Assembly: GCF_000017505.1 (NCBI RefSeq)
Contig: NC_009675.1
Location: 3,667,001-3,731,000, forward strand
DNA length: 64,000 nt
Origin: Anaeromyxobacter sp. Fw109-5
GTDB lineage: Bacteria; Myxococcota; Myxococcia; Myxococcales; Anaeromyxobacteraceae
Reading direction: 5' to 3'
The notes beneath the pieces are model-generated. The model ran no database searches and was not told the origin of the DNA. It saw nothing but the letters and a program-made list of their open reading frames with translations. Below, piece by piece: positions 53,369-59,715 of this stretch. The position numbers and the translations under genes are program-made. The stretch's first letter is position 1. Each line of letters begins with the position of its first letter.

Positions 53369-54157
53369 TCAGGCGCCGGGCCTCGCGGCGTGCACGTTCA
53401 CGGCGCCGACGTGGTACTTCCGCGCGACCCTCTCCTTGGACGTCCCCAGGAACGGGTCGAACCGCTCCCGGAGCTCGACCCCCTCGAACCCGACGTCCGC
53501 GAGCAGCCACAGGAGCTCTGCCTCCGGCAGAGCGCCGCCGATTCAACCCGACCAAAGCTCGACGTCGTGTCGGATGGCGTCCGGCAGCTCCGCCGCGACC
53601 GCGATGTCCGCGTAGAGGAAGCGCCCGCCGGGGCGGAGAACCCTCAGCACCTCCGAGAAGGCGCGGCGCTTGTCGGGGGCGAGGTTCAGCACTCCGTTCG
53701 AGATCACGACGTCGGCCGAGGCGTTCTCGACGGGGAGCTCGAGGAGGTCGCCGCTCCGGAGCTCGACGTTCGGGAGCCCGGCTTCGCAGGCTGCCGCCTC
53801 CGCCTTGGCGAGCATGGCTTCGGTCATGTCGATGCCGACGGCCCGCCCAGCGGGACCGGCGGCGCTCGCCGCGAGCAGCAGATCCATCCCCGCGCCGCAC
53901 CCGATGTCGACCACCGTGGCGCCCGGAGGCACGGGCGCGATGCGCAGCGGGTTCCCGACGCCGGCGAACGATTCGACCGCGAGCGCCGGGAGTCGCGCGA
54001 GCGCCTGGGGCTCGTAGCGCAGGAACGTCTCGGCGTACTCGGCGCCGCGGTGGAAGTGGAACTCGCCGTCGGGCGCCGACGCCACCCGCGAGTAGACGGA
54101 TCGTATCTCGACGCGCAGCCGCGCGGTGTCCAGATCGACGGGGCAGGTGATGGCCAT
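53369..54157 (-). CDS. SAM methyltransferase, candidate selenoprotein (in-frame UGA at codon 205)
   Basis: The frame opens at 54157 and meets a TGA at 53543-53545 (codon 205). It stays open with the same GC-rich third positions for 57 more codons to a TGA at 53369. The full product is 262 residues, a normal length for this ArsM-like class I family; the 204-residue version would lack the last strands. SAM motif I is [11 protein letters not shown] (82-92). The UGA sits in L-W-S-G-[UGA]-I-G-G-A-L, where arsenite methyltransferases have a conserved arsenic-binding Cys (C-I-G-G-A-L). The other ArsM Cys (N-C-V-C-N-L) is G here (N-G-V-L-N-L), so the substrate may not be arsenic. A SECIS-like hairpin follows at once. 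Confidence 0.75.
53515..53533 (-). promoter_or_regulatory. Bacterial SECIS-like stem-loop after the UGA
   Basis: Nine bases after the UGA, GCTCTGCC pairs perfectly with GGCAGAGC around the loop GGA: an 8-bp stem with a 3-base loop starting in G. The loop begins 17 bases after the UGA. Published bacterial SECIS rules ask for a loop of 3-14 bases with G in the first two positions and 16-37 bases between UGA and loop; all are met. Confidence 0.7.
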
Positions 54158-54414
54158 GGCGCCCTCCGGCGACGTGTCGCCGGAGCGGGTATGGTCCGCG
54201 TCCCCGGCCGCGGCAACGCGCCGCTGCTCCTCGGTCCATCCGGGTGGCGTGAATCGATCTCCGCCGCCGGTCGACGGTGCAGCCGCTCGCCAGCGCGATC
54301 GCCCACCGGCTTCTCTACCCCCCCCCCCCGAGCCAGCACCGGCCGGCGGGGCGGCGTCGCCCCAGGGGCGTGCTCGCGGTAGACGCCCGTCAGCCCCATC
54401 CGGTAGAACGCGCC
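54158..54414. other. Divergent intergenic region with 12-C tract
   Basis: This 257-base region lies between the methyltransferase start and gpt. It holds a run of twelve C (54318-54329) about 86 bases before the gpt ATG. I see no purine riboswitch core. Confidence 0.4.
54318..54329 (+). repeat. Poly-C tract (12 C), intergenic
   Basis: Twelve consecutive C bases lie in the presumed promoter region of the gpt/nucleoside transport operon. This is the longest homopolymer I found in the window. Confidence 0.8.
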
Positions 54415-54975
54415 ATGGCGACAGAGTCGACCAACTCCTCCCCGGGCGAGGAGCGCGGCGCGGTGCCCTCCGACGAGGGTCCGTACAAGGACGAGATCGT
54501 CATCTCGTGGCCGGAGCTGCATCGCGACACGCGGTACCTGTCACGCGTGCTGCACGAGCGCGGTGACTGGAAGGGCATCATCGCCATCACCCGCGGCGGC
54601 CTCGTGCCGGCGGCGCTCGTCGCCCGGGAGCTCGAGATCCGGCTCATCGACACGGTCTGCATCGTCAGCTATGGCGCGGGCGAGTCCGGCGGCGCGGAGC
54701 AGAAGCAGGGCGAGCTCCGCTGGCTGAAGACGGTCCCCGGCGACGGGGACGGCTGGCTCCTCATCGACGACCTCGTCGACACCGGACGCACCGCGCAGGC
54801 GGTCCGGGAGCGGCTCCCCAAGGCGCACTTCGCGACGCTCTACGCCAAGCCGCTCGGGCGTCCCGTGGTCGACACGTTCGTGAAGGAGTTCCGGCAGGAG
54901 AAGTGGATCTACTTCCCCTGGGACATCGACTACCGGTTCGTCTCGCCGATCCGGCAGAGGCGCGTGACGGAGTGA
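54415..54975 (+). CDS. gpt: Xanthine-guanine phosphoribosyltransferase
   Basis: The 186-residue enzyme converts guanine, xanthine or hypoxanthine and PRPP to the nucleotide. The PRPP loop is L-L-I-D-D-L-V-D-T-G-R-T (115-126), and other family pieces are I-I-A-I-T-R-G-G-L-V-P and W-I-Y-F-P-W-D. Compared with E. coli Gpt (152 residues) it has about 22 extra N-terminal residues, Ser/Glu-rich. It leads directly into the nucleoside ABC importer, 13 bases away, so uptake and salvage are one operon. Confidence 0.93.
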   Translation: MATESTNSSPGEERGAVPSDEGPYKDEIVISWPELHRDTRYLSRVLHERGDWKGIIAITRGGLVPAALVARELEIRLIDTVCIVSYGAGESGGAEQKQGELRWLKTVPGDGDGWLLIDDLVDTGRTAQAVRERLPKAHFATLYAKPLGRPVVDTFVKEFRQEKWIYFPWDIDYRFVSPIRQRRVTE

Positions 54976-54988
54976 GGGACCGCCGGCA

Positions 54989-56527
54989 GTGAGCGCACCG
55001 CGCCTCGAGCTCCGTCAGGTCACGAAGCGCTATGGGGACGTCGTCGCCAACGACGACGTCGCCCTCTCCGTCGCGCCCGGGGAGATCCATGCGATCCTGG
55101 GCGAGAACGGCGCCGGCAAGTCGACGCTCATGAAGATCGTCTACGGCGCGGTCGCGCCGGACGCCGGCGAGCTCTTCTGGGACGGCGCGCCGGCCGCGAT
55201 CCGAAACCCGCACGACGCGCGCGCCCTCGGCATCGCGATGGTGTTCCAGCACTTCTCGCTGTTCGACTCGCTGACCGTGGCCGAGAACGTCTGGCTCGGC
55301 CTGTCCCGCGCGGTGAGCCTGCGGGAGGTGATCGACGGGATTCGCGAGAAGGGGGCCGAGTACGGCCTCGACCTCGATCCCCACCGGCCGGTGCACGTGC
55401 TGTCCGTCGGCGAGCGCCAGCGCGTCGAGATCGTCCGGGCGCTCCTCGCCAACCCCCGGCTCCTGATCCTCGACGAGCCGACCGCGGTGCTCACGCCCCA
55501 GGCCGCCGAGAGGCTGTTCGAGACCCTGCGCAAGCTCGCCGCGACGGGGTGCTCCATCCTCTACATCAGCCACAAGCTCCACGAGATCCTGGCGCTGTGC
55601 CACCAGTGCACGGTCCTGCGCGGCGGCCGCGTCGTGGCGAGCTGCGATCCCTCGCGGGAGAGCACCGCCAGCCTCTCGCGCATGATGATCGGCGCCGAGC
55701 CGCCGCGGCTCGAGCGGCGCCCCGCGCAGCCCGGCGCGCTCGCGCTCTCGACGCGAGGGCTCGCCCTCGAGAGCCACGATCGGTTCGGGGTCGAGCTCGA
55801 GGACGTCTCGCTCGACGTCCACGCGGGCGAGATCGTCGGCATCGCCGGGGTGTCCGGGAACGGGCAGCAGGAGCTGCTCGCCGCGCTCTCCGGCGAGGAC
55901 CCGCGCGCCGACGCCGGCGCGATCCAGCTCTTCGGGCAGCCCATCGGGCGGCTGGGCGCGGCCGCTCGCCGGCGGCGCGGCCTGCACTTCGTCCCCGAGG
56001 AGCGGCTCGGCCGGGGGGCGGTGCCGTCCCTCTCGCTGGCGAACAACATGCTGCTGACGCGCAAGGAGGCGCTGCGCGCGTTCGGCTGGATCGATCGTGC
56101 CGCGCTCCGCGACCAGGCGTCCGGAGTGCTCCGGCGGTACTGGGTGAAGGCCTCCGGGCCGGGCGCCGCGGCCCGGAGCCTCTCCGGCGGCAACCTCCAG
56201 AAGTACATCGTCGGGCGAGAGCTCGACGCCCTCCCGAAGGTGCTCGTCGTGGCGCAGCCGACCTGGGGCGTCGACGTCGGCGCGGCGTCGCAGATCCGGG
56301 CCGAGCTCGTCGCGCTCCGCGACGCGGGGTGCGCCGTGCTGGTCGTCTCCGAGGAGCTCGAGGAGCTGTTCGCGCTCGCCGATCGTCTCCACGTCATCGC
56401 GAAGGGGCGCCTCTCGCCGTCGCTCCCGACGGCCGCGGCCACCGTGGAGCAGATCGGGGAGTGGATGAGCGGGCTGTGGGACGGCGGCCCCGCGCGGACG
56501 GCCGCGCTCGCCGGAGACTCCCGATGA
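54989..56527 (+). CDS. Nucleoside/BMP-type ABC importer, double ATPase subunit
   Basis: The 512-residue protein carries two ATPase domains. The first has Walker A G-E-N-G-A-G-K-S-T, signature L-S-V-G-E-R-Q-R-V and Walker B L-L-I-L-D-E-P-T. The second has the usual degenerate Walker A of this group (G-V-S-G-N-G-Q-Q), L-S-G-G-N-L-Q-K and V-L-V-V-A-Q-P-T in place of D-E-P-T. This is the NupA/RbsA-like layout of BmpA nucleoside systems. GTG start after gpt; the end overlaps the permease ATG (ATGA). Confidence 0.93.
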   Translation: MSAPRLELRQVTKRYGDVVANDDVALSVAPGEIHAILGENGAGKSTLMKIVYGAVAPDAGELFWDGAPAAIRNPHDARALGIAMVFQHFSLFDSLTVAENVWLGLSRAVSLREVIDGIREKGAEYGLDLDPHRPVHVLSVGERQRVEIVRALLANPRLLILDEPTAVLTPQAAERLFETLRKLAATGCSILYISHKLHEILALCHQCTVLRGGRVVASCDPSRESTASLSRMMIGAEPPRLERRPAQPGALALSTRGLALESHDRFGVELEDVSLDVHAGEIVGIAGVSGNGQQELLAALSGEDPRADAGAIQLFGQPIGRLGAAARRRRGLHFVPEERLGRGAVPSLSLANNMLLTRKEALRAFGWIDRAALRDQASGVLRRYWVKASGPGAAARSLSGGNLQKYIVGRELDALPKVLVVAQPTWGVDVGAASQIRAELVALRDAGCAVLVVSEELEELFALADRLHVIAKGRLSPSLPTAAATVEQIGEWMSGLWDGGPARTAALAGDSR

Positions 56528-57612
56528 TCCGCCTCGACGTCCGCCCGGTCCCCTCGCTCGCGATGAGCGTCCTGTCTCCCATCATCGCCCTCGCCGTGAC
56601 CGTGGCCGCGGGCGGGGTGCTCTTCCTCGCGCTCGGCAAGGACCCGGTGCGCGTGCTCTCGATGTTCCTCGTAGAGCCCTTCAACGGCGTGCGCGCGCTC
56701 ACCGAGCTGGGGCTGAAGTGCACCCCGCTCGTGCTGTGCGCGCTCGGCCTCGGGCTCTGCTTCCGCTCGAACGTGTGGAACATCGGCGCCGAGGGGCAGT
56801 TCCTGATGGGAGCGATCTCCGGCGGCGGGCTGGCGCTGTGGGTCACGACCGCCTCGGCGGCGCTCTCGCAGTGGGCGTTCTTCCCCCTGGTGGTGGTGGC
56901 GGGGGCCGCGGGCGGCGCGGCGTGGGCCGCGATCGTGGCCCTCCTGCGGGACCGCTTCAACGCCAACGAGATCCTCGTCAGCCTGATGCTCGTCTACGTC
57001 GCGGACCTCCTCCTCTCCTGGCTCGTGTTCGGGCCGTGGAAGGACCCGCACGGCTTCAACTTCCCGCAGACGGTGCAGTTCGCCGCGGCGACCGAGATCC
57101 CGCGCTTCGTGCGCGGCATGCGGCTGCACTGGGGGTTCGCGTTCGCGCTCGTCGCGGCCGTCCTCATGTGGCTGTTCATGTTCCGGACGCACCGCGGCAT
57201 CCAGCTCCAGATCGGCGGCCCCGCCCCGGCGGCGGCGCGGTACGCGGGCTTCTCGTCCCGCGCGGCGGTCTGGACGACGCTCCTCGTCTCGGGCGCGCTC
57301 GCGGGGATCGCCGGCGCGTTCGAGGTCGCCGGCCCGATGGGCCAGCTCACGCCGCACGTCGCGAGCGGCTACGGGTTCACCGCGATCATCGTCGCGTTCG
57401 TGGGCCGCCTCCACCCGCTCGGCGCGGTGCTCGGGAGCGTCGTGCTCTCCGCGTTCGTGATCGGCGGGCAGCTCGCGCAGTCGCGGGTCGGCCTGCCCGC
57501 GTCGCTGAGCGGCGTGTTCCAGGGGATGCTGCTCCTCGCCCTGCTCGGCTGCGACACGCTCATCCACCACCGTCCGCGGCTCGCCGGGTGGACCTGGAGG
57601 GCCGCGCCGTGA
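56524..57612 (+). CDS. Nucleoside ABC importer permease 1
   Basis: The 362-residue inner-membrane protein has about 8-9 helices of the BPD_transp_2 type. It contains the family's F-R-S-N-V-W-N-I-G-A-E-G-Q near residue 80 and G-Y-G-F-T-A-I-I-V-A-F-V-G near 280. It pairs with the next permease. Overlaps at both ends (ATGA and GTGA) show tight coupling. Confidence 0.92.
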   Translation: MIRLDVRPVPSLAMSVLSPIIALAVTVAAGGVLFLALGKDPVRVLSMFLVEPFNGVRALTELGLKCTPLVLCALGLGLCFRSNVWNIGAEGQFLMGAISGGGLALWVTTASAALSQWAFFPLVVVAGAAGGAAWAAIVALLRDRFNANEILVSLMLVYVADLLLSWLVFGPWKDPHGFNFPQTVQFAAATEIPRFVRGMRLHWGFAFALVAAVLMWLFMFRTHRGIQLQIGGPAPAAARYAGFSSRAAVWTTLLVSGALAGIAGAFEVAGPMGQLTPHVASGYGFTAIIVAFVGRLHPLGAVLGSVVLSAFVIGGQLAQSRVGLPASLSGVFQGMLLLALLGCDTLIHHRPRLAGWTWRAAP

Positions 57613-58529
57613 ACGAGGTCGCCCTGCTCGTCGCCGCGACGCTCGCCGCCGGCACGCCCCTCGCCATCGCGGGGCTCGGCCTCCTCCTCAACGAGCGCGC
57701 CGGCGTGCTGAACCTCGGCGCCGAGGGCATGCTGCTCATCTCCGCGGTCGCCGGCTTCGCGGCGACGTACCACGGCGGGAGCGAGTGGCTGGGCTTCGCG
57801 GCAGGCGCGGCCGCGGGCGCCGCCGTGGCGGCCGTCTTCGGCTGGCTCGTCGTGTGGCTCAACACGAACCAGTACGCGACCGGCCTCGCGGTGAGCCTCT
57901 TCGGCTCGGGGTTCTCCGCGTTCGTCGGGATCGACTACGTCGGCAAGCAGCTCGGCGAGCAGCCCGCCCACGCGGTGCCGGTCCTCGCCGGCCTGCCGTT
58001 CCTCGGCCCGGCGCTCTTCCGCCAGCACCCGGTGGTCTACGCGGCGATCGGCCTCGTCGCGGCCGCGGCCGTCCTGCTGTACCGGACGCGCGCGGGGCTC
58101 GTGCTGCGGGCCGTCGGCGAGTCGCCGCAGTCCGCGCACGCGCTCGGGTACGGCGTGCGCCGGATCCGGCTCGCGGCCGTCGTGACGGGCGGCGCGCTCT
58201 GCGGCGTCGCGGGGGCGTTCCTCTCCGTGGTCTACACGCCGCTCTGGGTCGAGGGCATGGTGGCCGGGCGCGGCTGGATCGCGCTCGCGCTGACGGTGTT
58301 CGCGACGTGGCGGCCGGGCCGGATCCTCCTCGGCGCCTACCTGTTCGGCGGGGTGACCATGCTCCAGCTCCACCTGCAGGCGCAGGGCGTCCAGATGCCG
58401 AGCCAGTTCATGGCGATGCTGCCCTACGTCGCCACCGTGGTCGTCCTCGTCCTGATCTCCCGGAATCCGCTCTGGATCCGGCTCAACATGCCCGCCTCGC
58501 TCGGGAAGCCGTTCTTCCCGGGCGCCTGA
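57609..58529 (+). CDS. Nucleoside ABC importer permease 2
   Basis: The 306-residue membrane protein of the same permease family has about 8 helices, N-L-G-A-E-G-M near residue 35 and R-A-V-G-E-S-P in the cytoplasmic coupling loop. The GTG start overlaps the previous stop. It is followed 55 bases later by the binding protein gene. Confidence 0.92.
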   Translation: MNEVALLVAATLAAGTPLAIAGLGLLLNERAGVLNLGAEGMLLISAVAGFAATYHGGSEWLGFAAGAAAGAAVAAVFGWLVVWLNTNQYATGLAVSLFGSGFSAFVGIDYVGKQLGEQPAHAVPVLAGLPFLGPALFRQHPVVYAAIGLVAAAAVLLYRTRAGLVLRAVGESPQSAHALGYGVRRIRLAAVVTGGALCGVAGAFLSVVYTPLWVEGMVAGRGWIALALTVFATWRPGRILLGAYLFGGVTMLQLHLQAQGVQMPSQFMAMLPYVATVVVLVLISRNPLWIRLNMPASLGKPFFPGA

Positions 58530-58584
58530 CCCGCGGCACGGAGCGCCTCACCGCAGTCAACCACCGCACCTGAGAGGGGAACCC

Positions 58585-59715
<1,131 letters not shown>

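Follow-up and report, generated by a model that had tools for sequence, protein, structure and literature searches.

A predicted selenocysteine-containing ArsM-like methyltransferase with a conserved SECIS-type hairpin in Anaeromyxobacter sp. Fw109-5

A methyltransferase gene on the minus strand of the window, that is, of the whole 64,000-nucleotide stretch of Anaeromyxobacter sp. Fw109-5 DNA that was analysed, starts with an ATG at position 54157, ends with a TGA at 53369-53371 and contains a single internal TGA at codon 205. This locus raises two questions. First, is the internal TGA a stop, or is it read as selenocysteine (Sec)? Second, if Sec is inserted, which substrate would the enzyme methylate? 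The first-pass annotation had proposed a candidate selenoprotein; the frame and coordinates that it gave are exact, with 262 residues when UGA205 is decoded, and the strand, which it left unstated, is minus. The features of the gene are the following.

53369-54157, minus strand: Sec-containing ArsM-like class I SAM methyltransferase, predicted from homology and fold, 262 residues with UGA205 as Sec.
53543-53545, minus strand: in-frame UGA at codon 205 within LWSG-U-IGGAL, a UxxG motif, from ORF reading and alignment.
53515-53533, minus strand: bacterial SECIS-type hairpin of 8 bp with loop GGA, the loop lying 17 nt past the UGA, from pairing, comparison and the published model.
53372-53542, minus strand: post-UGA stretch of 57 codons, encoding the last two sheet strands (residues 225-233 and 251-258), from purifying selection and the predicted fold.
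53693-53701, minus strand: Ser-Asn-Gly at codons 153-155, where solved ArsM structures have Ser-Asn-Cys, from alignment (CmArsM Cys174 with Gly155).

If UGA205 were a true stop, the gene would give a truncated 204-residue protein or would be a decaying pseudogene, and a standard gene caller does stop this ORF at 204 residues, as had been predicted. The GC content at third codon positions is 0.917 before UGA205, remains as high after it (0.965), in line with the earlier observation that GC-rich third positions persist, and is 0.72 in the same frame beyond the real stop. Purifying selection downstream of UGA205 argues against a true stop: in comparison with Anaeromyxobacter oryzae, the nearest named relative in the scan of species genomes, pN/pS is 0.25 after UGA205 and 0.26 before it. 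With more distant orthologues the values are 0.6-0.74 after and 0.43-0.46 before, the tail being less constrained. The predicted model of the 262-residue protein (pLDDT 93.7, pTM 0.92) places residues 225-233 and 251-258 as the last two strands of the methyltransferase sheet, both past UGA205, so that a 204-residue product would be incomplete. Judged from these comparisons of sequence and predicted fold, the C-terminal part is required by the methyltransferase.

Full-length orthologues are present in five genomes of the order, from Anaeromyxobacter and another family, with 64-78% identity and one in-frame TGA each, at the codon matching UGA205. The gene was found in only three of nine sampled Anaeromyxobacter genomes, which makes it dispensable or mobile, and its absence from the other six would also suit a decaying gene. 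The scan of species genomes yielded 80 relatives from many phyla (42-78% identity), which were aligned with the window gene (n = 81). In the UGA205 column, 60 genes have TGA, 20 have Cys (TGC or TGT) and one (L093), excluded from the Sec and Cys counts, is frameshifted; the Cys/UGA exchange that had been anticipated here is thus found, with nothing other than Sec or Cys in 80 of the 81 genes. Sec forms occur in Myxococcota, Acidobacteriota, Chloroflexota, Planctomycetota, Actinomycetota, Pseudomonadota and others, and at least six Sec/Cys label changes are counted on a tree that was built with the column-205 residue masked. The homologues read on beyond this column, and most of them terminate where the window protein does, give or take a few residues.

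Because independent genomes have UGA at the matching codon, the TGA is taken to be genuine, and a sequencing error over a codon that is really TGC or TGG has practically no chance of being the explanation. The TGC or TGT of the Cys homologues is its sole support, whereas 59 further genes, drawn from numerous independent assemblies, also have TGA in the column, almost always together with the hairpin, and the genome is a closed chromosome.

Some relatives have larger architectures. A methyltransferase of about 40% identity with UGA in the 205 column (L030, G027:C23:52628-56311) carries an in-frame second methyltransferase-like domain, and two Sec methyltransferases (L108 and L122) are extended by 107-126 residues beyond the usual end, with Cys in the extensions. 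In the viral contigs searched, only remote methyltransferases were found.

The hairpin, GCUCUGCC-GGA-GGCAGAGC, begins 9 nt past UGA205 and has eight perfect pairs. The published bSECIS model specifies a loop of 3-9 nt with a G within its first two positions, a stem of 4-16 bp, a UGA-to-loop distance of 16-37 nt and an MFE of -7.5 kcal/mol or lower (PMC13188914). The window hairpin lies within all of these limits, with its 3-nt loop GGA, 8 bp, 17 nt and -19.7 kcal/mol, the last value being for the fold of a 40-nt stretch that holds the hairpin; the 9-nt spacing, eight pairs and 17-nt loop distance on which the first-pass annotation had based its agreement with bacterial SECIS rules were all reproduced. 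Taken as a single sequence, the signal exceeds chance but is moderate for DNA this rich in GC: the 40-nt fold has z = -2.35 relative to shuffles, 7 of 200 shuffles fold equally well, and random synonymous recoding of the window gene gave 8/8 pairs in 0.6% of draws.

Across the 60 Sec genes the mean pairing is 7.68 of 8, with at least seven pairs in 58 of them, compared with 4.3 in the 20 Cys genes, 5.4 after synonymous recoding and 2.5-4.2 with slid partners; such counts are inflated by sequence kinship, for which the Cys relatives, with their similar protein, are the fair control. Compensatory changes are seen at the sixth pair, where 51 Sec genes have G-C, 8 have C-G and 1 has U-A. At the last pair of the stem, 23 genes have C-G and 21 have U-A; 50 of the 60 share the loop sequence GGA. 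A SECIS-like element that is preserved in the Sec genes but not in the Cys genes is strongly supported by these alignments. A true stop at UGA205 is very improbable in the face of this covariation, of the UGA kept in the orthologues, of the Cys that substitutes for it in relatives, and of the two predicted strands that would be lost.

The closed chromosome (5,277,990 bp), in which the window occupies positions 3,667,001-3,731,000, was searched as a whole for the four Sec-decoding genes whose absence would have spoken against the proposal, and it carries all of them: selA, selB and selD, with profile scores of 545, 325 and 397 bits, respectively, all above the curated cut-offs, and a tRNA-Sec (selC) with anticodon UCA. 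The second-best tRNA-Sec-like match in the genome is a tRNA-Ser and was rejected. The selD gene (L018, G000:C1:4028582-4029508) itself carries a UGA in frame, at codon 11, which makes it likely that Sec decoding is in use in this genome. A GC-rich hairpin-like stretch is found after that codon.

With the UGA and the hairpin conserved, Cys exchanged for Sec and the machinery present, the candidate-selenoprotein reading is strongly supported, as securely as comparing sequences allows. The decisive evidence for it is comparative, namely the conserved UGA, the conserved pairing and the Sec/Cys exchange, and it is by comparison that the Sec insertion signals and the Sec/Cys equivalence are established. 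The best explanation overall, which we hold to be very probably correct, is a genuine selenoprotein, a 262-residue methyltransferase of ArsM fold in which the hairpin directs Sec into position 205. We propose that SelB together with Sec-tRNA(UCA) would recognise the hairpin just past UGA205, and that insertion of Sec at this codon would give the full-length enzyme.

The best PDB matches of the predicted model in Foldseek are CmArsM, CrArsM and human AS3MT (PDB 4fs8, 5evj and 8xt7), all ArsM/AS3MT enzymes, and comparison establishes that the fold is the same. Sec205 aligns with the conserved Cys of ECLGGAL in CmArsM (Cys224) or ECLAGAL in CrArsM, and Gly155 with the second conserved Cys, that of Ser-Asn-Cys (CmArsM Cys174), with positions counted by hand. 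Both had been recognised from the window alone, UGA205 as falling at a conserved Cys of arsenite methyltransferases and Gly as replacing the other. Cys174 and Cys224 of CmArsM are the residues that bind arsenic; the window protein has Cys at neither of these substrate-side positions. The ArsM/AS3MT enzymes differ from it also in having Cys, not Sec, and in their longer solved chains of 321-387 residues. A 42% identical paralogue in the same genome (L137), with Cys at both positions, was rejected as an orthologue; this two-Cys gene lies directly upstream of a radical SAM peptide-maturase-like frame, which is followed by a short Cys-rich frame (L137:1382-3513).

By its sequence the protein is a Sec-containing ArsM-like methyltransferase, for which 'arsenite methyltransferase' is a family label. 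This assignment comes from homology to the arsenite and Sec-fusion families, and the scores are below all of their cut-offs. NF008823, the NCBIfam arsenite methyltransferase family, gives 213.4 bits with a cut-off of 263, and NF041537 (ArsM/AhpD), NF041536 (ArsM/DUF2284) and NF047649 (methyltransferase/UXPK-star), which are among the best, give 221, 205 and 209 bits with cut-offs of 460-575. The last three share a homologous N-terminal methyltransferase domain with the window protein but are fusions with two or three Sec, whereas the window protein has 262 residues, one Sec and no fused domain.

A Sec-containing arsM was named as early as in a 2008 paper, and a 2016 survey counted 41 Sec arsenite methyltransferase genes in 39 organisms. 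The UxxG family is already catalogued (PMC13188914, PMC5029168): the prokaryotic selenoprotein catalogue lists 'Arsenite methyltransferase' as NF008823, UxxG, with one Sec and WP_011987699.1 (PMC13188914 Table 1; PMC9312934). The same catalogue files the family under the experimentally verified ones, citing Fomenko et al. 2007, assigns UxxG alike to NF041537, NF041536 and NF047649, and cites Haft & Tolstoy 2025 (mSystems) for the ArsM fusions (PMC13188914). The window protein resembles the catalogued family in being a stand-alone ArsM-like methyltransferase with one Sec; its U-I-G-G is a UxxG with the UGA in frame, and Cys homologues exist (20 Cys, 60 Sec). In this comparison with the published description of the family, no difference was found. 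Judging by its accession number, WP_011987699.1 may derive from this very strain. Since Sec UxxG arsenite methyltransferases are already catalogued, the novelty is low, and the gene is a well-supported, ordinary example of a known selenoprotein family.

As to the chemistry, we infer that the selenol at position 205 would occupy the place of the conserved substrate-binding Cys of ArsM/AS3MT (CmArsM Cys224), where it would most likely serve as a soft nucleophile or as a ligand of the metalloid, keeping the substrate in place while SAM donates the methyl group, or else as the residue responsible for the redox step of the cycle. For the substrate, the default guess is arsenite or a methylarsenical, with arsenite itself uncertain because the NF008823 score is under the cut-off and the Cys174 equivalent is missing. 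A new substrate, as surmised earlier from this Gly, is possible; the loss of the second Cys is common to the whole sampled subfamily. Sec would then be inserted into an enzyme that is no arsenite methyltransferase and that, having a single chalcogen ligand, methylates another soft nucleophile (sulfide, persulfide, a selenide, or an arsenical that already carries a methyl group), a reading that we regard as conceivable though doubtful. It is favoured by the Gly at position 155 in each of the 80 genes scored, whether they carry Sec or Cys, an invariance that looks inflated, because one of the patterns used in the search for relatives demanded Gly there, and it has to contend with arsenite methyltransferases being the closest folds by far.

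The genomic context bears on this reading from both sides. Read by eye, the window neighbours on one side are acyl-CoA synthetase-like, isobutyryl-CoA mutase-like and acyl-CoA dehydrogenase-like genes, and on the other side phosphoribosyltransferase and ABC-transporter genes. Among them there is no arsenic gene cluster beside the window gene, which would fit a non-arsenite substrate, but there is no sulfur context either. No neighbour conserved at most relatives' loci was found. A minority of these loci have an ArsR-rhodanese fusion, OsmC, DsrE or a rhodanese/metallo-beta-lactamase protein nearby, which may be a sign of reactive sulfur or metalloid chemistry, though the pattern is not a general one; an ArsR-family regulator, however, is also compatible with arsenic. 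The DsrE, OsmC and rhodanese/metallo-beta-lactamase genes (L108:5008-5460, L109:2741-3406 and L116:1759-2958) stand near Sec methyltransferases of Chloroflexota and other groups, a setting that suggests a link with sulfur. The fusion of an ArsR-family HTH with rhodanese was seen near the Sec/Cys methyltransferase in ten relatives of different phyla, its domains being checked for the L116 member, at the following loci.

ArsR-rhodanese loci: L116:175-852, L063, L122, L091, L098, L054, L056, L096, L103 and L131.

In the window itself, the genes on the phosphoribosyltransferase side (54277-59715, opposite strand) comprise a phosphoribosyltransferase-like gene and, after it, genes for an ABC transporter ATPase, for two permeases and for a lipoprotein-like binding protein, a set resembling nucleoside or purine uptake genes.

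A broader proposal, for which we would claim rather little likelihood, is that the relatives form a widespread one-Sec/Cys subfamily that lacks the partner Cys, acts on a non-arsenite substrate (perhaps sulfide, persulfide or selenide) and is under ArsR-rhodanese control in some lineages. For the organism, a metal-reducing soil and sediment bacterium, the gene model is corrected from 204 to 262 residues. For the family, the analysis contributes Sec/Cys exchanges that are clear and span many phyla, along with a SECIS that is conserved, and its wider interest lies in the substrate of this one-ligand ArsM-like subfamily.
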